Source of the DNA: an uncultured Acidimicrobiales bacterium
GTDB lineage: Bacteria; Actinomycetota; Acidimicrobiia; Acidimicrobiales; UBA10347
Length of the DNA: 64,000 bases
Direction: 5' to 3'
Assembly: GCA_937991435.1 (NCBI GenBank)
Contig: CALKPY010000007.1
Location: 1 to 64,000 of the forward strand
Shown here: one piece after another, positions 40,260-63,220 of the stretch
Layout of the letters: each line of letters begins with the position of its first letter
Position numbering within the stretch: the stretch's first letter is position 1
Notes under the pieces: model-generated
Seen by the model: the letters and a program-made list of their open reading frames with translations, nothing else
What the model was told of the DNA's origin: nothing
Database searches by the model: none
Made by a program: the position numbers and the translations under genes

Positions 40260-41237
40260 GTGGCCGATATGAAGTTGAAAGAACTAGGCATCATCACCGT
40301 GATCGCCATACTCTGCGGTTCCATCCTCCTATGGATAGAACCCGACCCGAAACCCACAGCAGCCGTCGTCAAAGAGATCGACGTAACCCAACCCACAACC
40401 ACCGTCGCCAAAGTCCACGTCGACAACGAACCCGCCGTAGGGCTAACCGCAGACATTAACCGCGAAGACGGAACCTGGTACCCCTACGGCGCGGCCCTCA
40501 TCCTCCTAAACACAGGAGACACCGAAGAGTTCCGCCAAGTGCTGGGCGACGTGGCCGCCGTATGCATGGCTTGGTCGAACGGAGATATCGGCTGGGAAGG
40601 CGAAGACCACACCGGCCGGAAACGGTACGGCCTCTGCGGGACCACGACACCCGCAACCAAAAACAACCCACGCCGGTCCGCCGAAGAAATGCGAGCCATG
40701 GTCGACAGGAACCTTGGCAACGGCATACAAGCCCTATCCGGCGACGACCGTTGGATCGACGGCAGCTACCGAGAGCACCTGCCCGCCGTACATGAAGCGA
40801 TCGGCCCGATCCTGCAGGAAGAGTACGTGTTCGTTGCCCGGATCCCCGTGCACCGAGACATCGCCGAACCGCTCGCCGAGTTGCTTGCTCACGCCAAGAA
40901 AGACGGGTTCGAGCTGACTGGATGGGGTTGGCGATCCCCAGAGAAACAGATCGAGCTGCGGTTCGCCAACTGCTCGGAGATCCGGAACGACAAGGCATCC
41001 CAGAACCACGAAGAAGGATCACTGCTGTTCACACTGCCACCGAGTAAATGCGAAACCCCTACCGCTGTGCCGGGCACTTCACGGCACGAGTCCGGTAAGG
41101 CTATCGACTTCAACAAGGGGGGCCGAGGGTTAAGGCCCTACGATGCCGAGTTCGCTTGGCTGAAGGAACACGCCGCCGACTACGGCTTCTTCAACCTGCC
41201 CTCGGAAGCTTGGCACTGGTCTGTCGATGGCAAGTAG
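40260..41237 (+). CDS. Membrane-anchored M15/VanY-like D-Ala-D-Ala carboxypeptidase
   Basis: ELTGWGWRSPEKQIELR...PGTSRHESGKAIDF...AWLKEHAADYGFFN...EAWHWS. Confidence 0.85.
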   Translation: MADMKLKELGIITVIAILCGSILLWIEPDPKPTAAVVKEIDVTQPTTTVAKVHVDNEPAVGLTADINREDGTWYPYGAALILLNTGDTEEFRQVLGDVAAVCMAWSNGDIGWEGEDHTGRKRYGLCGTTTPATKNNPRRSAEEMRAMVDRNLGNGIQALSGDDRWIDGSYREHLPAVHEAIGPILQEEYVFVARIPVHRDIAEPLAELLAHAKKDGFELTGWGWRSPEKQIELRFANCSEIRNDKASQNHEEGSLLFTLPPSKCETPTAVPGTSRHESGKAIDFNKGGRGLRPYDAEFAWLKEHAADYGFFNLPSEAWHWSVDGK

Positions 41238-44874: not shown

Positions 44875-44946
44875 GTCTTTCTATCTTTCTGTCTGGGTAT
44901 TACTTGGCATCTCTGCCGCCAAGTAGCCTAGCAGGAGAAAGAATGG

Positions 44947-45018
44947 TAGACCAGCAGGGTATCGATCCCTGAGCAAGCACGGGTCAAAGCCGTGAGCACC
45001 ACCTAGGCGTACTGGTCA
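44947..45018 (-). tRNA. tRNA-Gln(TTG), CCA encoded
   Basis: CACGG-CTTTGAC-CCGTG anticodon arm, CAGGG-ATCGATA-CCCTG T-arm, acceptor TGACCAG/CTGGTCT. Confidence 0.75.
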
Positions 45019-45022
45019 TCAG

Positions 45023-45097
45023 CTCTGTCTCTTGGACTCGAACCAAGCTCATTTCGCATTAACAGTGCGACGTCGTCTCCCGGACGACTCAGACAGA
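45023..45097 (-). tRNA. tRNA-Asn(GTT), no encoded CCA
   Basis: TCGCA-CTGTTAA-TGCGA anticodon arm, CTTGG-TTCGAGT-CCAAG T-arm, acceptor TCTGTCT/AGACAGA. Confidence 0.85.
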
Positions 45098-45109
45098 ATG
45101 TGTACTTCG

Positions 45110-45182
45110 TGCCCTTGTCAGGACTCAAACCTGAAACAGCCGGTTCGTAGCCGGATATGATTTTCAATTTCACCACAAGGGC
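45110..45182 (-). tRNA. tRNA-Arg(ACG), no encoded CCA
   Basis: CCGG-CTACGAA-CCGG, CAGG-TTTGAGT-CCTG, acceptor GCCCTTG/CAAGGGC. Confidence 0.8.
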
Positions 45183-45186
45183 GTGG

Positions 45187-45260
45187 TGCGCTCGGTAGGA
45201 CTCGAACCCACAATGAAGCCCGGGTAGAAGCCGGGTCGGAGATCCAGTCTCCACGAGCGC
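45187..45260 (-). tRNA. tRNA-Arg(TCT), CCA encoded
   Basis: CCCGG-CTTCTAC-CCGGG, acceptor GCGCTCG/CGAGCGC. Confidence 0.85.
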
Positions 45261-52537: not shown

Positions 52538-54121
52538 CTAGCAGCTAACGTTGTGCTTGATCTGAGATCCGGCAGCGAACCTCAGCTGGTTAGGGGTGCT
52601 GTCGCAATCGGCGTAAGCGACGATGCAGATCCGGGAACAAGGCTTCAGATCGAACCACTTGAAAGGGGTTCCTTGGTCGCCCGACACATACCGCCCGCCA
52701 GGGCGGGGTTCAAGACCGAAGTAATCGAGCGAAATTCTCCGACAAGCCCCGTTGATTTCCAGCGTTGAGAGCGGAGGCACTTCGGTGATCTCGTAGGTCG
52801 CGACGCGGGAGCAGCATTCCCATGCTGTGGTGAGAGCCTGGTAGGTGTTGCCGTCGATATCGACGCCTTCTTCCGGGCAGCCCGGGCAATCAGGCGGCTC
52901 CCACGTGTCAGGCAGGTCTTCCCACCCGCCGTTGAGATCCCAGTTGAAGCCATCCCATTCGTAGATCGAGATCCGAATGTTCTTCGCCGGGAAATCTGAG
53001 GGGTTGATCAGCTTGAAGACGACCGCCTCTTCAGAGACCTTCGACTCGTTCACCATGGTGCAGCAGCGCCGACGTGTGCCCCAAGGTTCGCAGAAGCACC
53101 TGTCGCCCTGAGGGCGCGGTTCTGGCGGGTCGATGTAGCCGCAGTCCGGCAGATAGTTGGACAGGCACAGAGCAATCCGGGGGGAGTCCACCGGGAGCGG
53201 CCCTGGCGGGACGATCAGGTTAGCGAGCTGCGTTGACGTGAGCCGAGACAGGCGTGTCCGTTGACGCGAGCAGCAGAAGAACTCGATCGGATACACGGTC
53301 TGCCCAAACCGCAGTCCGTCGTCTCTACCCCAGCACCATGTTGGGGGTTCGTACATGAACGGCTGTTCCGAAGTCAGCTCGAACTCGACTCTGTACTGGG
53401 TGCAGCCGCACGACTGGCAGCAGCTGCCCCGTTTCTGAATGACTTTGATCCCTTGGGTCTGCCCAACTGAACACATCGTCCGGGCGACGCCACGCCACTT
53501 AGCTCCGCCTTGGATCGCGATCTCGTCGCCGACCTTGTACGCTGCCGTCGGGTCGCCGTTCGCTGCTGCGAGAGCGACCAGTTCCGCTTCGTCGACGCTC
53601 GAACAGAAATCCGGATCGTTATCGATGCAGTACGCGGCCATGGTCAGATCGCCGAGGCCGCACACATCCAACGCCCCAAGGTTGCAAACCTTTCCGGACA
53701 CGACAGAGTCGAGCCAGTCGAGACCAAACTCCACGCCAGCGCAGGTGCGGCCGTAAAGCCAGCCGGTGAACTTGAGGCGGCGCGGCCCGTAGCGGACCGG
53801 CCCGAGCGAACCGCCTTGCCCAACGTTCTGAGCGATAGCCCGATCGGAGAACGTCGAATTGAACCCGGTTACCTTCTCAAGGTAGAACCCGGCGAACTCG
53901 TCGGAGAGCGGATCGTTCGGGCACCACCATGGCGCCGAGTCTGTAACCGGGTGCTCATAAGGCCCCTGGTATTCTTCAGGACCGAGCAGGTCTGTGTGTT
54001 GGCACGCGCAGTCCGGGAAGACCTGCATGGAAGACGGGCCGTAGCCGTTCCGCAGATACGACATGACGCGTTTGTTATTGGCGAGTTCGACGCCGTTATA
54101 GATGGCCCATGAGTGTAGCAT
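52538..54121 (-). CDS. Distal-tail/minor tail protein, Cys-rich
   Basis: Directly downstream of TMP; GVELANNKRVMSYLRNGYGP. Confidence 0.65.
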   Translation of the reverse strand: MLHSWAIYNGVELANNKRVMSYLRNGYGPSSMQVFPDCACQHTDLLGPEEYQGPYEHPVTDSAPWWCPNDPLSDEFAGFYLEKVTGFNSTFSDRAIAQNVGQGGSLGPVRYGPRRLKFTGWLYGRTCAGVEFGLDWLDSVVSGKVCNLGALDVCGLGDLTMAAYCIDNDPDFCSSVDEAELVALAAANGDPTAAYKVGDEIAIQGGAKWRGVARTMCSVGQTQGIKVIQKRGSCCQSCGCTQYRVEFELTSEQPFMYEPPTWCWGRDDGLRFGQTVYPIEFFCCSRQRTRLSRLTSTQLANLIVPPGPLPVDSPRIALCLSNYLPDCGYIDPPEPRPQGDRCFCEPWGTRRRCCTMVNESKVSEEAVVFKLINPSDFPAKNIRISIYEWDGFNWDLNGGWEDLPDTWEPPDCPGCPEEGVDIDGNTYQALTTAWECCSRVATYEITEVPPLSTLEINGACRRISLDYFGLEPRPGGRYVSGDQGTPFKWFDLKPCSRICIVAYADCDSTPNQLRFAAGSQIKHNVSC

Positions 54122-57100
54122 TATCGAATCCCTGCCAGCTGTTCTTCTTCTCGGCGAGCGGCTTGGAACATGGCCTCTGAGAGGTCAACGCCATTGAAGT
54201 TAAATGTCGATCCGCCAATTGAGGCAGCCTGCCCGCCTGTGCCGCGAGGCGCTTGGTCAAGAGCGAACCCGGTGCCGAACGGCTGCGCTTTAGTGAGCAG
54301 CTCCCGCATCCGGGCTTTGTCAGAAAGAGGCAAGATAAGCTCAGGTCCGGCTTCGCCGACCATACCAATTGTGGGGCTTGTCACGAGGCCGCCCTTAGCG
54401 AACCCGGGAATACCGCCAAGTAGCCCGCCGATCGACCCGATATCGAAGTTCGAGACAGCGTTCTTGAAGTCGGTGAACTTGCCGATAACAGACTCAATCG
54501 GCCCGAGAATACTGTTGACGAAACCGATGACACGGTCGACAGCGTTACTGATAGCGTCCGAGATGCCATCCCAAATTTCGGTGGCTTTGTCCTTGAGTTT
54601 GTTGAAAATTTCGATGGCTTTCGTTTTGGCCGACCTGAAGATTTCGAGCGCTTTGTTCTTGGCCTGTCGGGCAGGAGTGATGATCGAGGTCTTGATGCCG
54701 TTCCAGATGACCATCGCCACAGCCTTCAAGCTCCTGAAGATCGCGAGCGCGATGATCTTCAGGCCGCGGAACGTCGTGACGACGACGTGCTTGATGAGGT
54801 TCACAATGAGTGTGACACCAGTCCAGAACGAAGTCCAGATAAGGATCGCGCCAGCCTTGAGAATGTTGAAAATAGCCAGCGCAGCCACTACCAGAAAATT
54901 GAACGCAGCGACTACAGCGTTCTTGATCCACATGGCAGCGCCGACCACAGTAGCCACGATGAAGTTCCATACAACTTTGATGAAGTTCCACGTCGCCATG
55001 AGCGCAGCACCGATACCGTTCCAGATAGCCCAGAAGACCGCAACCACAGTGTTCTTGAATCCGACGATGTAGCCCCACAAGGTCACAAAGAACTGGCCTA
55101 CAGCTTTGATGAAGTTCCAGATGTGAACGGCCATCGACGCGACCCAGACACCGAACGACACCGCAAGCCCGGCAATCCACAGCCCAAACGATTTGATGGC
55201 ATCCCAGATACCGAAGATGATGTTCCGGAAAGTCTCGGACCGGGTCCACAGCAGATAGATCGCTGCGCCCAGCGCGACGATCGCAGTGATGAGCACAAGA
55301 ATCGGCGAAGCCAAGAACAAAGCCCAGAGAGTTCCAATGAGACTGAAGAGACTGGAGAACACGCCAATGATGGAACCGATCACTGCCCATAGACCGGAGA
55401 AGAACCCGATCACAGAACCGACGATCGGAGCGATGTATAGGAATGCTGTTCCAAGTAGCGAGAGCGCACCCCAGACCGCGGCGAACACGCCGACGATCTT
55501 GAGAAGCGTCTTACCGAACCCGGATTGGAAGAACCCGACAATCATCTGGACGGTGCGGCCTACAAATTTGCCGACAGCGGCGAGCTTTGGGCCGAGCCAC
55601 TTCGCGAAGTCCTGAACGGCCGGGATCGCTTCGCCTTGCACCCATCCGGCGAACTCTGAGATCCAGGTGCCGACTTGACGGCCTGCTTTTACTAGCTTAG
55701 GGATCCACTCTACAGCGAAACGAGTGAAGGCAGGGATGGCTACGTTCGTGATCCAGTTAGTGAAAACGATTGCTTTAGCAACAAGTTGGGTTCCGAAACC
55801 TTCACCGAACTCTTCACCTCCACCAAGAGCAGCCTTGAGGGCCAGCTTGATTCGGGTTACCGAGTGGCCGATCATTGCCGTGAGCGACATCCACGCGTCG
55901 ATGACTCCGGCCCGCAAGAAAGCGTTGGCGCCAATGAGTTTCGTGAACCAAGCGATAAGCCCGCCGATCACGGCGCCGACCAACACGATTGGGTTCATGA
56001 GCTTACCGAAGATCATGATGAGAGGCCCAACCGCAGCAGCGAGCATCAAGGCCGCGGCGATCGATTTGAAGATGGCCGGGTTCATGTTCGCCAGCGAAGC
56101 GAAAACTTTCGTGAACGAAGTAGCTACCTTCGCGACAATATCAATCAGTCCCGACTCTGCGACAGCGAGAAGAAACCCTTCCCAAGCCGACTTGAGTTTC
56201 AGGATCGCTCCTTCAAGGCCCGACATTCGGGTCTCCGCCATATCCTTCGCGGCACCTTCGGCTTGATCGATCGCTTCAGCGAACTCGAACGCGTCCTGAG
56301 AGCCTCGTTCAAGAATAGCGAGCATGGCGGGGCCACCACGCTTACCGAAGATCTGCATGATGTCGGAGGCGTCCGCTGTTGAGTTGCCAAACTGGGCGAC
56401 GATCTTATCGAAGTCAAGCAGCTGCCCAGCAGAGTCGATAGTCGAGATCCCCAGCTCAGCCATCTTCGCCGCAGCAGGCCCAGTCGCGTTAGCCAAATCA
56501 GCGTAGATGCGGGCCATCGAGGTACCCGCCCGTCCACCCTGGATACCAGCATCCGACAGAATACCGATATGTGCGGCCGCCTCCGCGGAAGAAACACCGA
56601 GACCATTAGCAACGGGCGCCGCGAACGACATGGCGTCGATAAGCTGCTGCACCGAAGTGTTAGAGTTCGCAGCGGTAAAGGCCAGCTCGTCGTTAATCTT
56701 GTTGATTTCTGATGCCTCTTTGCCGAAGCCTTGGAGGACGTTCGACGCTCCATCGGCCGCTGCAGCCAACGAAAGGCCGCCAGCCGCAGCAAGGTCGAGA
56801 ATACCGGGGGTAGCTTCGAGGATCTGGTTGGCGTCAAAGCCAGCCATACCAAGGAACTCCATAGCTCCAGCTGCTTCACCGGCAGAGAACTGTGTCGACG
56901 ATCCCAGCTCTTTAGCCTTGTCGCGCAGCGAAAGAAGAGTGTCGCCGGTAGCTCCAGTGACTGCTTCAACGCCGAGCATGCCATTCTCAAAGTCCCGGAA
57001 CGTGTTGACGGCAGCGACTCCGATACCGATGACCGGAGCGGTGACCCCGAGAGTCATAGCCTTGCCGAGCTTGGTGGCTGCGCCTGCTACGCTACCTGCT

Positions 57101-57189
57101 GCGCCGTTCACTCCGGCAGCTGTGGCCGCTGCGAAGCCGGTGGTGTCTGGGATTACTTTGACGAAAGCTGTACCGATGACGGACGGCAT
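54121..57189 (-). CDS. Tape measure protein
   Basis: 1022 aa, TMP N-terminal pattern FRDFENGMLGVEAVTGAT...LRDKAKELGSSTQFSAGEAAGAMEFLGMAGFD, hydrophobic repeats. Confidence 0.93.
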   Translation of the reverse strand: MPSVIGTAFVKVIPDTTGFAAATAAGVNGAAGSVAGAATKLGKAMTLGVTAPVIGIGVAAVNTFRDFENGMLGVEAVTGATGDTLLSLRDKAKELGSSTQFSAGEAAGAMEFLGMAGFDANQILEATPGILDLAAAGGLSLAAAADGASNVLQGFGKEASEINKINDELAFTAANSNTSVQQLIDAMSFAAPVANGLGVSSAEAAAHIGILSDAGIQGGRAGTSMARIYADLANATGPAAAKMAELGISTIDSAGQLLDFDKIVAQFGNSTADASDIMQIFGKRGGPAMLAILERGSQDAFEFAEAIDQAEGAAKDMAETRMSGLEGAILKLKSAWEGFLLAVAESGLIDIVAKVATSFTKVFASLANMNPAIFKSIAAALMLAAAVGPLIMIFGKLMNPIVLVGAVIGGLIAWFTKLIGANAFLRAGVIDAWMSLTAMIGHSVTRIKLALKAALGGGEEFGEGFGTQLVAKAIVFTNWITNVAIPAFTRFAVEWIPKLVKAGRQVGTWISEFAGWVQGEAIPAVQDFAKWLGPKLAAVGKFVGRTVQMIVGFFQSGFGKTLLKIVGVFAAVWGALSLLGTAFLYIAPIVGSVIGFFSGLWAVIGSIIGVFSSLFSLIGTLWALFLASPILVLITAIVALGAAIYLLWTRSETFRNIIFGIWDAIKSFGLWIAGLAVSFGVWVASMAVHIWNFIKAVGQFFVTLWGYIVGFKNTVVAVFWAIWNGIGAALMATWNFIKVVWNFIVATVVGAAMWIKNAVVAAFNFLVVAALAIFNILKAGAILIWTSFWTGVTLIVNLIKHVVVTTFRGLKIIALAIFRSLKAVAMVIWNGIKTSIITPARQAKNKALEIFRSAKTKAIEIFNKLKDKATEIWDGISDAISNAVDRVIGFVNSILGPIESVIGKFTDFKNAVSNFDIGSIGGLLGGIPGFAKGGLVTSPTIGMVGEAGPELILPLSDKARMRELLTKAQPFGTGFALDQAPRGTGGQAASIGGSTFNFNGVDLSEAMFQAARREEEQLAGIR

Positions 57190-57237: not shown

Positions 57238-57905
57238 CTATGCGAGCTGTGCGTTCTTTAGGTTGATCGTCTCGCTGTCATCGTCGTAGAACCAATCAGG
57301 CACATCGCCGACTTCAAGATCATCTCCGAAGTCTTCGAGCCTCCACCCGTTGATGTTGTCGACGTCAGCAGCGATCTGAGCATCGAACTTCTTGCGCTCT
57401 TTCTCGTCCATGTTCTTCACGAACACGGCATAGACGTAACAGAGGAAGTCGGCTACGAGAAGGCCCCGAATGCCGGAGGGCGAACCGGCTGCGATGATGT
57501 CTCCGTGAAGTTGGTCGGCGAAGGCGATTCCGAGTTGGAGGAGTCGGAAGGTTCGTCCAAAGGGGCGCCCGAGTAGACCTCCATGGCCCACTCAAGCAGG
57601 GCATTCAGCTGCTGCATCGTGACGATCACATCGGTCTTCCCGGCGATCACTGCATCGAACTGTTCGCGCTGTTCCGGCACGACAACAGTACGCATGTAGT
57701 CCTTCATCGCAGTGATCTGTACTTCCCCGAATTCTTTCTCGCCGGAAGCGAGGGTCTCTTCGGTCATACCAGACATAGCGACAGTCACGTCCATCATGAC
57801 CATGGCCGACATCTCAGGCACACACTTGTAGGTGACGCCGCCGAGTAGAAACTCTGCTTCGATGCCTTCGCCGCGGATGGCATCGAGATTGATTTGCTTT
57901 GGCAT
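57238..57905 (-). CDS. Tail assembly chaperone gpG-gpT-like fusion via -1 frameshift
   Basis: Frame change at slippery CCCTTTG (57558-57564, minus strand). Confidence 0.75.
57453..57905 (-). CDS. Tail assembly chaperone (gpG-like, unshifted product)
   Basis: 150 aa immediately upstream of TMP. Confidence 0.8.
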   Translation of the reverse strand: MPKQINLDAIRGEGIEAEFLLGGVTYKCVPEMSAMVMMDVTVAMSGMTEETLASGEKEFGEVQITAMKDYMRTVVVPEQREQFDAVIAGKTDVIVTMQQLNALLEWAMEVYSGAPLDEPSDSSNSESPSPTNFTETSSQPVRPPAFGAFS

Positions 57906-57920: not shown

Positions 57921-58307
57921 CTAGTCGAAAACTTCGCGGATCGCGTCAGAAAGGAAATCATTCTTTTTCGATCCGGGGTGGCTCACCTTACTCCGGAATA
58001 CGGGACCTCCACCGGATCCCGGAAATTTCAGAGTCTTCGATCCCGGCCCGATCGGATGGGCGTCCGTTCCGTGGATCACATACTTGGCGTAATTAATCTT
58101 CGCTTCGAGCGAAATGGTTCCCGGCTTGGGCGAATTAATCAGCCGCCCTTCGATGGACGCGGCAAGCTTGCCGGTGTCGCGAGGAGCGCGCGATTTAGCG
58201 ATCTGCTGCGCCCGGTTCGCTTTAGCGGCCATACCGGGGCTGATCGCGCCGCCGAGCTGCGCCTGCAAGTTTGGGGCAGGCGTGAAATGAATTGTACGTA
58301 CAAGCAT
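57921..58307 (-). CDS. HK97 gp10-like head-tail/tail completion protein
   Basis: IAKSRAPRDTGKLAASIEGRLI...INYAKYVIHGT. Confidence 0.8.
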   Translation of the reverse strand: MLVRTIHFTPAPNLQAQLGGAISPGMAAKANRAQQIAKSRAPRDTGKLAASIEGRLINSPKPGTISLEAKINYAKYVIHGTDAHPIGPGSKTLKFPGSGGGPVFRSKVSHPGSKKNDFLSDAIREVFD

Positions 58308-58849
58308 TACTCGTAACATCCTCTGTCGAATTCGACCTTGATATCCCAACGCCAACCAGCGCACCCACCATCAGGCGGGTACGGCCGCATGAGGCCCGGG
58401 ACGATAGCGTTGCAAACACCATGAGCTTCTTCGAGATACTCGAAATGATCGAGAAGGCAGCAGGTCATCACCCGAGCATCCTCGTACATGAGAGTCGCCG
58501 CCTCGGCGGATTCCTTCATCGACGGGAACGGGGTCGTCGGATGGGCTTTAGCCATAGGCCAGCAAGGCCGAAGAAGATGAATGGCCCAGTCGACCCCCAT
58601 CCCGATGTCTTCGCATGATTCGATCTCGTTGAGAACCTCAGGAAACTTTCCGATCGCGTACGGGAACAAGCCCTCAATCGAGACTGCGAGGAAGTCGCAG
58701 CAGTCCGCAGGAGGGGTCGTGTGGTACGGGAACACCGAGTCGGGCGCGCCGAGTCTCGTGTTGTTCTCAAGGCAATCGCAGATCGCTTTGAGGACGCCCG
58801 CAGCGAAGTCTTCGAATGCTCTTTCGTCGCCGATAGTTTGAGTAGCCAT
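58307..58849 (-). CDS. Tail terminator/connector-like protein
   Basis: Position and size in connector module. Confidence 0.55.
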   Translation of the reverse strand: MATQTIGDERAFEDFAAGVLKAICDCLENNTRLGAPDSVFPYHTTPPADCCDFLAVSIEGLFPYAIGKFPEVLNEIESCEDIGMGVDWAIHLLRPCWPMAKAHPTTPFPSMKESAEAATLMYEDARVMTCCLLDHFEYLEEAHGVCNAIVPGLMRPYPPDGGCAGWRWDIKVEFDRGCYE

Positions 58850-61800
58850 CAGCAGATTCTATGGAGGGTCTGGTTGCGGGGGCGTGGATACTGATCAGCT
58901 CGGTGGACGGTGACCCGTTGCGTGAGTCCCATGGGGTTGACTTTCTTCACCCACATGTCGACCTCGTACAGCCCGGTGCCGCCAGCTTGGACAGATGCCC
59001 ACGCTTGCCGCATGTCAAGTTCGACGCCTTCTCGCTGCAGCTCGGTGACACCGAACGGGATGGTGCAAGAACCTGATTCGCCGCACAGGCCCATGGCGAT
59101 AGCGCAAGCCAGCTTCTGGATCGGGACACCTCCGCCGGGGGGAAGGCATCCGCGTAGGTACTCGATCTCCCATGCCGGGCAAGGCAACGAAGCCCAGCGC
59201 TTCAGTTCTGCTTCTTGGGCAGCAAGCTCGCTGGCAGTTTTCTCGTCGGGCACGGTGTCGCGAATCACGCGGGTGACGTACACCGGTTCGTAGATCTCAG
59301 GTTCCTCGCGGGCGACCACATCGAACTGGCGGCCGCAAGCGTCACCAGCAAGCAGGTACTCGGCGACCCAGTCGTCGCAAACTACAGGCTTGTCATCTTC
59401 CGGGCTAAGGAACTGGTTGACCCAAGACGGGAACGTGTCGCACGGTTCGGGCATCGGCCGAGTATTGGTGTCGTAGCCGAAGTATTCTTTCAGCCAATCC
59501 GGCCACGAGTGTTTTGCTTCCGGCTTCTTCGGGACGTCCTTGATCACGGTGATACCGGTCGACGGTTGCGGATAGCCGAAGTAGTCGTACATCCATGGTT
59601 CCCATGTGTCGCACGGCTCCGGCCGCGTAGCGCAGGCCCCACCGGGGAATCGGGTTCCACGGGTGGTGAGTTCTTCGCAGGTCGCTTCGCACACGAACGT
59701 TACGGTGCAGGTAGGCGGCCATTCACAATCAGGATCCTGCGGGTCCGGGGCACACGCCGAGTGGCCTGACTGGCAGCAGTTGATATGGTACGGCCCCGGG
59801 TTATCCCTGTTGCAGCATTCGTTGCCAAGCTGCGAGCAGCAATGCCTGTGGGTCTTCTGAGAGATGTATCGGCGCCGTTTCCCGTTGACTGTGCGGACGA
59901 TGGCTACGCAGCCCTCGGGGATGTCGCATGGATCCTCTGGTTCCGGGTCCGGCAGTGGGCAGTCGCACACATACACTGCGCCTGTCACGGGGTCGCATTC
60001 GAGGCCGTTCTCGTCGGTGCAAACCGGGCACTCCCCATAGTTGACGCATTCGCCGGTCATGTCGACCCAGTCCTGCGCCCAGCTCGGGAGGTTATGCGAG
60101 CTAGCGAAGGTAGGTAGAACGATGTTCGGTCCAGAATTGTTATCTACTTGGATACCAGCTTCTTCGAGATACTCGGACGCCCATCCCTCAAGGCACGGTT
60201 CCGTAGCCGGATCAGCGATCTCTAGAAGCCCGAATCCTTGATCCTCAGCGGAGGACAGAACAGCCGGTCGCGGCGGGCAGATCGGGTTCGTGGCGATAGT
60301 GCAGCCGCAGCCGCCATGCTGGCAGTGGTTCGCCGGGCGCGGCTGGTGCGCTTCGTCTGCCGAGCGGCAGCAATCGTTCGGGGAATCGCGGAAGCAGCAA
60401 TGCTTCGGCTTCGAGGAGAGGCCCCGGCATGGCGCCGGGCGGTGATGGTGGTTGCAGACGAGTACGGTCGCTCCGGCCTCGTTGCATTCGGCGTCTGCGC
60501 ATTCCTGGCAGTAGCCGATGACTAGCCGCTTGCAGCCCCGGTTCGTGTTGAGGTAGTCGTCAACCCATCCCCACAGGCCGTTGTTGCCTGAAGCGTAGGT
60601 CGGGAGCGTGATCCGCGATGTCGTTGAGACGGGGTCGAGTTTGATCCGGTTGTCTTGCAGGTACTCGGCGGCCCATCCGGTTACCTCTTTGGGTTCGGCT
60701 GCCGGGTCATCGATCTGAAGCAGCGGCGTGTTGTCGTCGCCGTACGGTGTGTACTTGATGCCGGTTCCGTCGTCGCAGGAGAACTGGAGACGGGACCGGC
60801 CGCCACAATGGGAGTGAGCGCGGCAAGAGCAGCGTCCCTCTTGGCAGTGGTTTGATGGCTTTGGTCCCGCCGTCCAGCACCCTTGTCGGTGGCAGCAGTG
60901 ATTAGCGTTCGAGGTGGTGCCCTTGCATGGTTTCACCTTCGCTGGTTCACATTCGTGGGGGCAGCAGATGTAGGAGGCTCCGGCGCCATTGCAGTCGTCG
61001 CCGTCGTCGTCGAGACATTCGGGGCAGTGCCCGAAGGTGACGTCTTTGTAGCCGTTGCGGTTGGCCCAGTCTTGCACCCACCAGTCGAGCCGCGGTCCGC
61101 CGATGTTTTGGCGTCGAGCGAACGTTGGGAGGGTTACTAGATTTGGTGTGCCTCCCAATTCTGGGGTGATCCCTCGGGCTTCGAGGATCTCGGCGGCCCA
61201 ATCTGGGGTGGGCTTGGAGTGCGGGTCGGGGATTTGGAGGAGTTCGCCGTCGCAGGAATCTGCTGCGTAGGCGACTTCGGTGTGGCGTTTGACGACGTGT
61301 TTGGAGCAGCCGCAGCTTGTCTGACAGTGGTTGGCCGGGAATGGCCCGTTGCATCCTTCTCGGGAGCAGCAGTGATTATTGTTGCCGGGGGCGCCTGCGC
61401 AGGGTGTGAAGCATGTGTCGTCGCAGGAGCAGACGAAGGTCGCTCCGCTCGGCGCGCAGCGTCTCCCGTACTTATCGCAGCATTTCGTGCACTTTCCGTA
61501 CTTCACTTTGAGGTTGTTAGCGTCGAGCCAATCCTGCACCCACGGCCGAATAACCTCAGCCTCATCGAGCAACTCAGGATGAGCCGCAATATAATCTGCC
61601 GCCCACTGCGAGCACAGTCCCACAGACAGAGCCTCAGGGGCTACGTGGTCGTCCGGCGTGTACCCGATGACCTTCAGGAACGGTTCGACCCACTCGGGGC
61701 AATCAGGGGCAAGACGGCGCGTCTGCGTCTCACCCGTACGACAGGAGAGCCTCTCTGCCTTCGGAGGCTTCGGCGCATGGATCACCCGTCGAGTAACGAT

Positions 61801-62517
61801 CAGTTCCCGAGCATCACGGGCCAGATCATTTCCTTGCGGCCAGCCCAAGCCGTCGACCCGAACCAGATAGTTCCGGTCATTCGACACCCGGAAAGAATCA
61901 AGAGGAAGCGCGATGCCATCCACGTAAATGCCGCACACGCCAGCGATCGGACCCGGAAGCCGAAGCTTCGGGTAATCGCAGCACGAGCAACCCACGTCGC
62001 AAGCCTCGTTGCAGCCCGGCCGGAACAGCTCTTTACGGATGCCGCGGAACTGTCGACCGGTAGCCATGTACAGCAGGTCCGAAGCGTACTGGATCGCACG
62101 CTCAGCCTGCTCCCACGTAATATCAGTCGAACAACATTCGAACAGCTCGTCCGGTGTCATCCAAGGCTCAGTGACAGCATCATGAAAGATCGTCTTGCAC
62201 TTCGGCGCCGGGCAACACTTACCGCCCACGGCTGGGTTGTAAGTGTCCAAAATGTACGGATGACCGTACTCATCGAGGATGTTATCCGCCACCTCAGCGA
62301 AGTCATCTTCCTCTTCGACCGTCTGAGCGTAACCGTCCAGCCAATCTGACGCCCAGCCTTTGCAGGCGCGAATATTTAGAACCGAGTCGCGGCCGACCGG
62401 TTCTTCAGGCTCCTCGCAAACCTCATCAGGATCAGGGTCCCGCTGAAGCGCAGCGATCTTTACTTCCCTTTGAGCGCGAGTTGGCCCCGTCCCGGAATCA
62501 ATGAACCGGTATCCCAT
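58849..62517 (-). CDS. Giant head-tail connector with internal Cys-rich repeat modules (1222 aa)
   Basis: N-terminal adaptor half PDELFECCSTDITWEQAERAIQYASDLLYMATGRQFRGI and C-terminal half GVELDMRQAWASVQAGGTGLYEVDMWVKKVNPMGL flank a long repetitive region. Confidence 0.8.
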   Translation of the reverse strand: MGYRFIDSGTGPTRAQREVKIAALQRDPDPDEVCEEPEEPVGRDSVLNIRACKGWASDWLDGYAQTVEEEDDFAEVADNILDEYGHPYILDTYNPAVGGKCCPAPKCKTIFHDAVTEPWMTPDELFECCSTDITWEQAERAIQYASDLLYMATGRQFRGIRKELFRPGCNEACDVGCSCCDYPKLRLPGPIAGVCGIYVDGIALPLDSFRVSNDRNYLVRVDGLGWPQGNDLARDARELIVTRRVIHAPKPPKAERLSCRTGETQTRRLAPDCPEWVEPFLKVIGYTPDDHVAPEALSVGLCSQWAADYIAAHPELLDEAEVIRPWVQDWLDANNLKVKYGKCTKCCDKYGRRCAPSGATFVCSCDDTCFTPCAGAPGNNNHCCSREGCNGPFPANHCQTSCGCSKHVVKRHTEVAYAADSCDGELLQIPDPHSKPTPDWAAEILEARGITPELGGTPNLVTLPTFARRQNIGGPRLDWWVQDWANRNGYKDVTFGHCPECLDDDGDDCNGAGASYICCPHECEPAKVKPCKGTTSNANHCCHRQGCWTAGPKPSNHCQEGRCSCRAHSHCGGRSRLQFSCDDGTGIKYTPYGDDNTPLLQIDDPAAEPKEVTGWAAEYLQDNRIKLDPVSTTSRITLPTYASGNNGLWGWVDDYLNTNRGCKRLVIGYCQECADAECNEAGATVLVCNHHHRPAPCRGLSSKPKHCCFRDSPNDCCRSADEAHQPRPANHCQHGGCGCTIATNPICPPRPAVLSSAEDQGFGLLEIADPATEPCLEGWASEYLEEAGIQVDNNSGPNIVLPTFASSHNLPSWAQDWVDMTGECVNYGECPVCTDENGLECDPVTGAVYVCDCPLPDPEPEDPCDIPEGCVAIVRTVNGKRRRYISQKTHRHCCSQLGNECCNRDNPGPYHINCCQSGHSACAPDPQDPDCEWPPTCTVTFVCEATCEELTTRGTRFPGGACATRPEPCDTWEPWMYDYFGYPQPSTGITVIKDVPKKPEAKHSWPDWLKEYFGYDTNTRPMPEPCDTFPSWVNQFLSPEDDKPVVCDDWVAEYLLAGDACGRQFDVVAREEPEIYEPVYVTRVIRDTVPDEKTASELAAQEAELKRWASLPCPAWEIEYLRGCLPPGGGVPIQKLACAIAMGLCGESGSCTIPFGVTELQREGVELDMRQAWASVQAGGTGLYEVDMWVKKVNPMGLTQRVTVHRADQYPRPRNQTLHRIC

Positions 62518-62533: not shown

Positions 62534-63220
62534 CTATACAGGGTCGTAATCGCAGTCGATTGAGTCAGGCAGAGTGTTGGTGCAAATTCCGCCGACAGGT
62601 CCGCCGTTCTGAACGACAGCTTGGTCATCTGGGAGAATCCATTCTCCCGGAACCGAAGGCGTCCAGTTCGGGTTGGACTCGGCGTAGCCTTCGAGTTCAA
62701 GCTCGACAGCGTTGTCGTTAGCGAACCCGATGTCGCCGGAGAGAACCCAGTTGATCGACTTGGGGATCAACCACTGGAACCACGGCCATGCTTCATCAGT
62801 CGCGCATTTGCCCTTCTCGGCGTTCTTCGCCCAGATCTCGACCTGGCGGGAACCGTCGCAGTCGACATCGTTGACGTCCGGCATCATGAAGCCTCGGGGA
62901 ACAGTTCCATCGAGGAACATCTGCGAGTTGAGGAGCAGGCCGATCATGGGGACAGGGATGCCGCAGAGCATGAGGGTCAGTTCGAAGCCCTTGATTCGGG
63001 AGCAGTCGATGTCGTGGATGCAGATATCGCCGCAGCCGTCCTTGACCAGAATCTCTTCGCCGTCTTCCGTGTCGGGCGACATGGTCAATGAAACGAACCC
63101 TTTGGTGGTGATTCGCGAGTTCGGGTTTTGCGAGTGAACGAGAGCAGCGCCGCATTCGTCGTTTCGGGTGACGCGGATCCGGCAAGCCTTGATGCTCTTC
63201 GGGCAACAGAATGTACCCAT
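62534..63220 (-). CDS. Major tail protein
   Basis: MGTFCCPKSIKACRIRVTRNDECGAAL...TTKGFVSLTMSPDTEDGEEILVKDGCGDICI. Confidence 0.75.
   Translation of the reverse strand: MGTFCCPKSIKACRIRVTRNDECGAALVHSQNPNSRITTKGFVSLTMSPDTEDGEEILVKDGCGDICIHDIDCSRIKGFELTLMLCGIPVPMIGLLLNSQMFLDGTVPRGFMMPDVNDVDCDGSRQVEIWAKNAEKGKCATDEAWPWFQWLIPKSINWVLSGDIGFANDNAVELELEGYAESNPNWTPSVPGEWILPDDQAVVQNGGPVGGICTNTLPDSIDCDYDPV

Follow-up and report, generated by a model that had tools for sequence, protein, structure and literature searches.

A siphophage head-tail adaptor with an insertion of four cysteine-rich modules on a contig from an uncultured Acidimicrobiales bacterium

The head-tail adaptors of phages are usually small, constrained rings, and a gene in which one defined loop of such a ring takes an insert over three times as large as an ordinary adaptor raises the question of what so large an addition might do at the neck of a virion. 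The gene lies within the first 64,000 bases (bases 1-64000, here called the window) of a 115,733-bp contig (CALKPY010000007.1, hereafter C7) from the draft assembly of an uncultured Acidimicrobiales bacterium, which totals 3.7 Mb. Its product of 1222 amino acids (aa) carries an insertion of ~865 residues that holds four related cysteine-rich modules, and we argue below that these modules may form a collar around the neck of the phage.

An adaptor interrupted at one loop

The gene is a single intact open reading frame (ORF) with an ATG start, a Shine-Dalgarno-like GGAGGG just 5′ of it, and a stop that overlaps the ATG of the next gene, which encodes a neck protein of family phrog_810. Its parts, in window coordinates, are as follows.

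58849-62517, minus strand: head-tail adaptor with the ~865-aa insertion, whole gene with stop (ORF; phrog_783, E 7.5e-29)
62188-62517, minus strand: N-terminal extension, aa 1-110, with one tryptophan unit (W-unit), GWASDWLDGY (from alignment with relatives)
61768-62187, minus strand: adaptor N-half, aa ~111-250, a helix and a five-strand beta region ending ...GWPQGNDLA (helix and strand order from the relative L026)
61288-61698, minus strand: module 1, aa 274-410, to which the single module of the relatives L026 and L027 corresponds
60817-61245, minus strand: module 2, aa 425-567
60295-60723, minus strand: module 3, aa 599-741
59743-60228, minus strand: module 4, aa 764-925
59338-59742, minus strand: tail of the insertion, a fifth, degenerate Cys/Trp stretch, aa 926-1060, with the W-units EPWMYDYFGY, PDWLKEYFGY, PSWVNQFL, and DDWVAEYL
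58852-59175, minus strand: adaptor C-half, aa 1115-1222, last strand, helix, plug hairpin, and helix (phrog_783 positions 154-252)

The match of the protein to phrog_783, a family of head-tail adaptors, falls in several separate stretches, and a search of the genome placed the halves separately at profile positions 86-150 and 154-252, so that residues ~111-250 and 1115-1213 match a single adaptor family. The order of the surrounding genes (major tail protein, adaptor, phrog_810 protein, gp10-like protein, chaperone, tape measure) is that of Gordonia phage CloverMinnie. By family match and gene order the protein is a siphophage head-tail adaptor, and a member of a known family. An initial annotation of the window had read its two ends as one siphoviral adaptor and had allowed that the flanks might not belong to a single protein; the coverage of both halves by phrog_783 upholds the reading and answers the reservation, although of the ~255-aa N-terminal part described there only aa ~111-250 are adaptor proper, aa ~1-110 being an added extension. 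This extension is missing from adaptors of 218-303 aa, and L026 and L027 have a different one.

The site of the insertion became clear from relatives that lack it, a comparison the initial annotation had proposed. Among the matches listed from viral contigs (IMG/VR) were 79 adaptor homologues, every one of which was 218-303 aa long (median 250) and without the insert. The insert is flanked by the segments ..GWPxxxDL and (T)W.v.Y..G, between which ordinary adaptors have a loop of ~15 residues. The window protein falls outside the ordinary length of the family, a length that is typical of phrog_783 rather than defining for it. Two more, diverged phage contigs in the source assembly encode adaptors of 254 aa (C61, L013) and 328 aa (C90, L014), neither of which has a module insertion.

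The modules and their relatives

Each of the four modules holds 13-16 cysteines, and their pairwise Smith-Waterman alignments scored Z = 12.1-28.7 against composition-preserving shuffles, with 24 columns invariant across all four, ten of them cysteine. Units of the form W..(D/E/N/Q)(W/Y/F)(L/..) occur 14 times in the protein, whereas 2000 shuffles averaged 0.26 and never exceeded 3. The four cysteine-rich modules between the adaptor halves and the short W-units, both of which had been pointed out in the initial annotation, are thus borne out, while the consensus that it gave for all four modules applies in full to three: modules 2-4 carry the segments LLxIxDP (LLQIxDP in that consensus) and LPTxA, and module 1, which is divergent, lacks both.

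The nucleotide identity between modules is 48-57%, which rules out a recent tandem copy as well as the assembly collapse that had been raised as an objection to the modules, and the module pattern is neither chance nor artefact. The broader suspicion, that an assembly or frame error fused the adaptor with a foreign gene, might draw on the draft state of the assembly (164 contigs) but is refuted for practical purposes by the uninterrupted frame, by the guanine-cytosine content at each codon position, in which the insert resembles its flanks, by the divergence of the modules, and by independent single-module homologues with the identical site in another metagenome-assembled genome (MAG).

That second genome was found by running the four-module profile against 397 genomes of the order, in which there was one other carrier, Acidimicrobiales MAG-179 (G276), with two phage contigs (JAHDEJ010000020.1 and JAHDEJ010000028.1; E 1.4e-9 and 2.4e-7). 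Their adaptors, L026 and L027, are 542 and 544 aa long and carry one homologous module at the same insertion site as the window protein, and their genes, too, are flanked by a major tail protein gene and by phrog_810-type genes. By position and by shared segments (HPEL.. and ..CS.HvV) this module corresponds to module 1, and like module 1 it lacks the two segments common to modules 2-4. The adaptor cores of the window phage and of L026 and L027 are strongly diverged, yet the module and its site are kept. A single module in the two relatives and four here point to a small adaptor family (n = 3 module-bearing members), the simplest history of which would be the amplification by duplication of one ancestral module to four in the lineage of the window phage.

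Beyond the source genome, no carriers were found with the module profile in the genome samples of the class and phylum, and four scans of viral contigs gave none among the matches listed. A further locus, L028, found by the major tail protein profile, was set aside as a carrier, its next genes forming no neck operon. Module profiles had no match in Pfam, PHROGs, or the PDB sequences, and when the modules were searched against phage records, even a limit of E 10 brought up chance-level matches only; a match to Mycobacterium phage JAMaL was discarded, as it lay antisense to JAMaL gene 60. L026 and L027 also contain a second, separate insert stretch (L026 aa ~345-414), predicted as strand-helix-strand-helix (pLDDT, the predicted local distance difference test, ~75), which is absent from the window protein.

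The rarity of the module (2 of the 397 order genomes sampled), its high variability among relatives, and its duplication-type architecture are also what a neutral or selfish expansion would produce, in which loop duplications are tolerated at a permissive surface loop and have no dedicated function. We regard this as very improbable, given a frame that stays intact over 865 aa, ten invariant cysteine columns kept despite the low nucleotide identity between modules, and the persistence of the module and its site despite strong divergence of the adaptor cores.

Position of the insert and a possible collar

A fold model was produced with AlphaFold2 for the single-module relative L026 from an alignment of 35 rows, with the module-1 fragment left out because it misaligned against adaptors of ordinary length. 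It had a confident core (blocks with pLDDT 80-93) and a poor insert, and its elements followed the order helix 92-107, five strands 112-174, insert 178-434, strand 435-443, helix 447-464, hairpin 475-487, and helix 508-517. This is the order of class 3/4 neck-1 adaptors, which have a helical core and an outer beta-sandwich, as in Milano gp14, where helices 1-50, a beta-sandwich 51-109, a head-joining loop 110-125, strand(s) 126-140, helix 141-159, a lumen loop 160-188, and helix 189-199 follow one another (PMC10491603). The insert lies between the beta strands and the last strand, as does the head-joining loop in Milano gp14, so that in the model it would take the place of that outward loop and not of the lumen loop or of the stopper-plug hairpin known from the adaptor of Douge (PMC13033339). 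In Milano gp14, Cys117 and Cys120 of the head-joining loop bond to the capsid protein, and five such loops are disulfide-bonded to it (PMC10491603); in phage 812, the beta-sandwich of the adaptor lies on the outer neck surface and touches the capsid (PMC12886913). By analogy, the insert loop would face outward on the ring. A Foldseek search with the L026 core returned as top PDB matches the neck adaptors of T5, Mycofy1, DT57C, and a gene transfer agent (GTA), all weak (E 0.045-0.7), and as best viral match a Gordonia phage head-to-tail adaptor (Foldseek prob 0.96).

The cysteine content of the C7 virion proteins was 4.35% in exterior-type and 0.76% in interior-type proteins, a grouping that we made ourselves from family matches and gene position. 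The adaptor had the highest content (7.4%), the tape measure protein had no cysteine in 1022 residues, and the enrichment reached the major tail protein and the capsid pentamer. The C61 and C90 phages showed the same split, with 7.5% and 6.7% cysteine in their adaptors and 0% in the gp10-like proteins of both and in the tape measure of C90, whereas in the G276 phages and in three cultured phages adaptor cysteine came to 2.2-4.0%. Three different phages of one MAG thus share a cysteine-rich exterior, which suggests an effect of host or habitat that can be tested and ties this locus to the question raised for Milano of why some phages armor their virions with cysteines. The cysteine-rich virion of Milano is stabilized by disulfides, and reduction destabilized it; because the enrichment in C7 is confined to the exterior across unrelated proteins, disulfides formed after lysis would be favored over metal sites.

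Metal binding would take the form of zinc-ribbon-like assembly or interaction domains, with cysteine and histidine as ligands, that recruit a virion or host protein. The invariant C-x2-C followed by ..YVC, the CC/CxC motifs, and the conserved histidine are compatible with such domains, as is a low-confidence beta-hairpin around the CxxC in an AlphaFold2 model of module 2 (pLDDT 41). L026 and L027, however, have no clear second pair of cysteine ligands beside YVC, and an enrichment restricted to the exterior and spread over many unrelated virion proteins speaks for disulfides; we therefore judge zinc binding improbable.

Our best explanation, to which we give a probability of about 0.5, is that the protein is a dodecameric adaptor with an outward collar of cysteine modules, held mainly by disulfides, which armors and clamps the head-neck joint. 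Four Cys/Trp modules, amplified in tandem, would have taken the place of the loop between the last two strands of the outer beta-sandwich, while the adaptor core, with a presumed copy number of 12, would still dock the portal to the stopper. The modules would project outward at the junction of capsid and neck, where the 12 copies would place ~48 cysteine-rich domains, and the short amphipathic W-helices might pack modules against one another or against the neck or capsid. The main job of such a collar would be to armor and clamp a pressurized joint, with loose contact to the cell surface possibly secondary.

The main rival to this explanation is an adhesive crown, in which 12 × 4 modules bind the host envelope or its glycans weakly but avidly, in the manner of the 936-phage neck passage structure, and were amplified for avidity. 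The number of modules varies (one in L026 and L027, four here), the insertion site is solvent-exposed by topology, and exposed tryptophans are frequent in carbohydrate binding. Carbohydrate-binding modules (CBMs) on neck proteins also have a precedent (PMC6669499). Yet no carbohydrate-binding or lectin family or fold was detected in Pfam, PHROGs, or the PDB, the W..(D/E)(W/Y)L helices that contain the tryptophans are amphipathic and seem suited to packing, and the cysteine enrichment, in also covering the major tail protein and the capsid pentamer, points to general armoring. For want of evidence of a binding fold, a receptor-binding role was demoted from first choice, and we consider it unlikely, if less so than zinc binding. 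As to the crown proposed in the initial annotation, one may reasonably expect a crown or collar if the insert, as its element order indicates, lies in a loop that faces outward in solved folds of homologues; receptor or glycan binding lacks specific support.

Several points weigh against the collar itself. The PDB fold matches of the core are below significance, and the outward direction of the loop comes from topology matched to other phages. Structure prediction of a module, as suggested in the initial annotation, produced no confident fold for module 2 from an alignment of six rows. The invariant CxxC and the conserved histidines (HCC and NHCQ in modules 1-3) also fit zinc binding, and the grouping behind the cysteine figures is our own assignment. 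Finally, modular repetition would suit adhesion as well.

Genomic setting and comparison with known neck systems

The minus strand of C7 encodes a full siphophage virion gene set. It includes a portal (phrog_776), a 1454-aa portal/maturation-type protein, a major head protein (phrog_777), and phrog_779, at the position that related phages fill with the pentamer protein; these are accompanied by long fibre-like proteins, the major tail protein, the adaptor, the phrog_810 and gp10-like proteins, a tail chaperone, the tape measure, minor tail proteins, and an endolysin. The neighbors of the adaptor gene, assigned by family match, are listed below.

62534-63220, minus strand: major tail protein (phrog_792)
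58307-58849, minus strand: neck protein of phrog_810
57921-58364, minus strand: HK97-gp10-like/tail completion (Neck1) protein
54121-57189, minus strand: tape measure protein, 1022 aa, zero cysteines

Before the tape measure gene, the overlapping ORFs 57453-57905 and 57238-57591 (window 57238-57905) resemble a frameshifted pair of tail assembly chaperones. Elsewhere in the window, positions 40260-41237 match a PHROG tape-measure family (E 5e-7), and a cluster of four tRNA genes (Gln, Asn, Arg, Arg) lies at 44944-45260. A run of fibre-like genes occupies C7 64378-78931 (L015/L119) on the minus strand. Several consecutive members have repeats on the pattern TDGxxTGVxQSGxxDHxVDITLLS and short cysteine-rich N-termini in common; these repeats suggest duplicated tail or head fibres. 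Between the capsid and fibre genes, C7 83830-88788 (L126) encodes a 1652-aa protein with 4.6% cysteine. In some relatives, a hydrolase or endolysin gene was annotated between the major tail protein and adaptor genes (L009:2881-3819 and L012:1213-2478), so the junction of these two genes evidently gains genes, and in two phages of one MAG (L022:1288-3336 and L023:14466-16505) a ~680-aa protein has a near-identical C-terminal half despite neck proteins only ~44% identical, which indicates recent exchange.

The adaptor family is known, whereas the module family, its size, and its place are without description in the libraries searched or the literature examined, in which no precedent was found for this module family at this adaptor site. 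We tentatively propose, at somewhat below even odds, an undescribed neck appendage in which the adaptor bears its own collar as an amplified array of cysteine modules in the head-joining loop, building a megadalton-scale, probably disulfide-linked crown at the portal vertex of Acidimicrobiales phages, in which the number of modules would vary over evolutionary time. The natural series of zero, one, and four modules offers a means of testing what neck decorations do.

Known adaptors of phrog_783 (CloverMinnie gp21, Rhodococcus phage ReqiPine5 gp22, and the adaptor of Pseudanabaena phage Pam4) share with the window protein both halves, the neck synteny, and the flanks of the loop, but the IMG/VR relatives are module-free and 218-303 aa long as opposed to 1222. 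L026 and L027 differ from it in having one module and a separate alpha/beta stretch, in their cysteine content (3.1-3.9% versus 7.4%), and in their length (542/544 versus 1222 aa). The statement in the initial annotation that no equivalent had been described was too strong in view of three further systems. The neck passage structure proteins of lactococcal 936 phages (PMC6669499) are exposed, neck-borne appendages with modular domains, as proposed here, but are encoded by a separate gene, form a BppU-like ring with trimeric fibres and CBMs, and have no sequence relation that we found. T4 gp13, a class 4 neck-1 adaptor, sets a precedent for extra domains protruding from the adaptor beta-sandwich (PMC10491603), although these are two helical domains in a protein of ~310 aa in total and are not reported as cysteine-rich modules. 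Milano gp14 has the same element order in a cysteine-rich virion and bonds the capsid through the loop at the same place; it differs in belonging to a myophage, in a head-joining loop of 16 residues, and in a disulfide-linked collar that is made by a separate protein, gp13 (PMC10491603).

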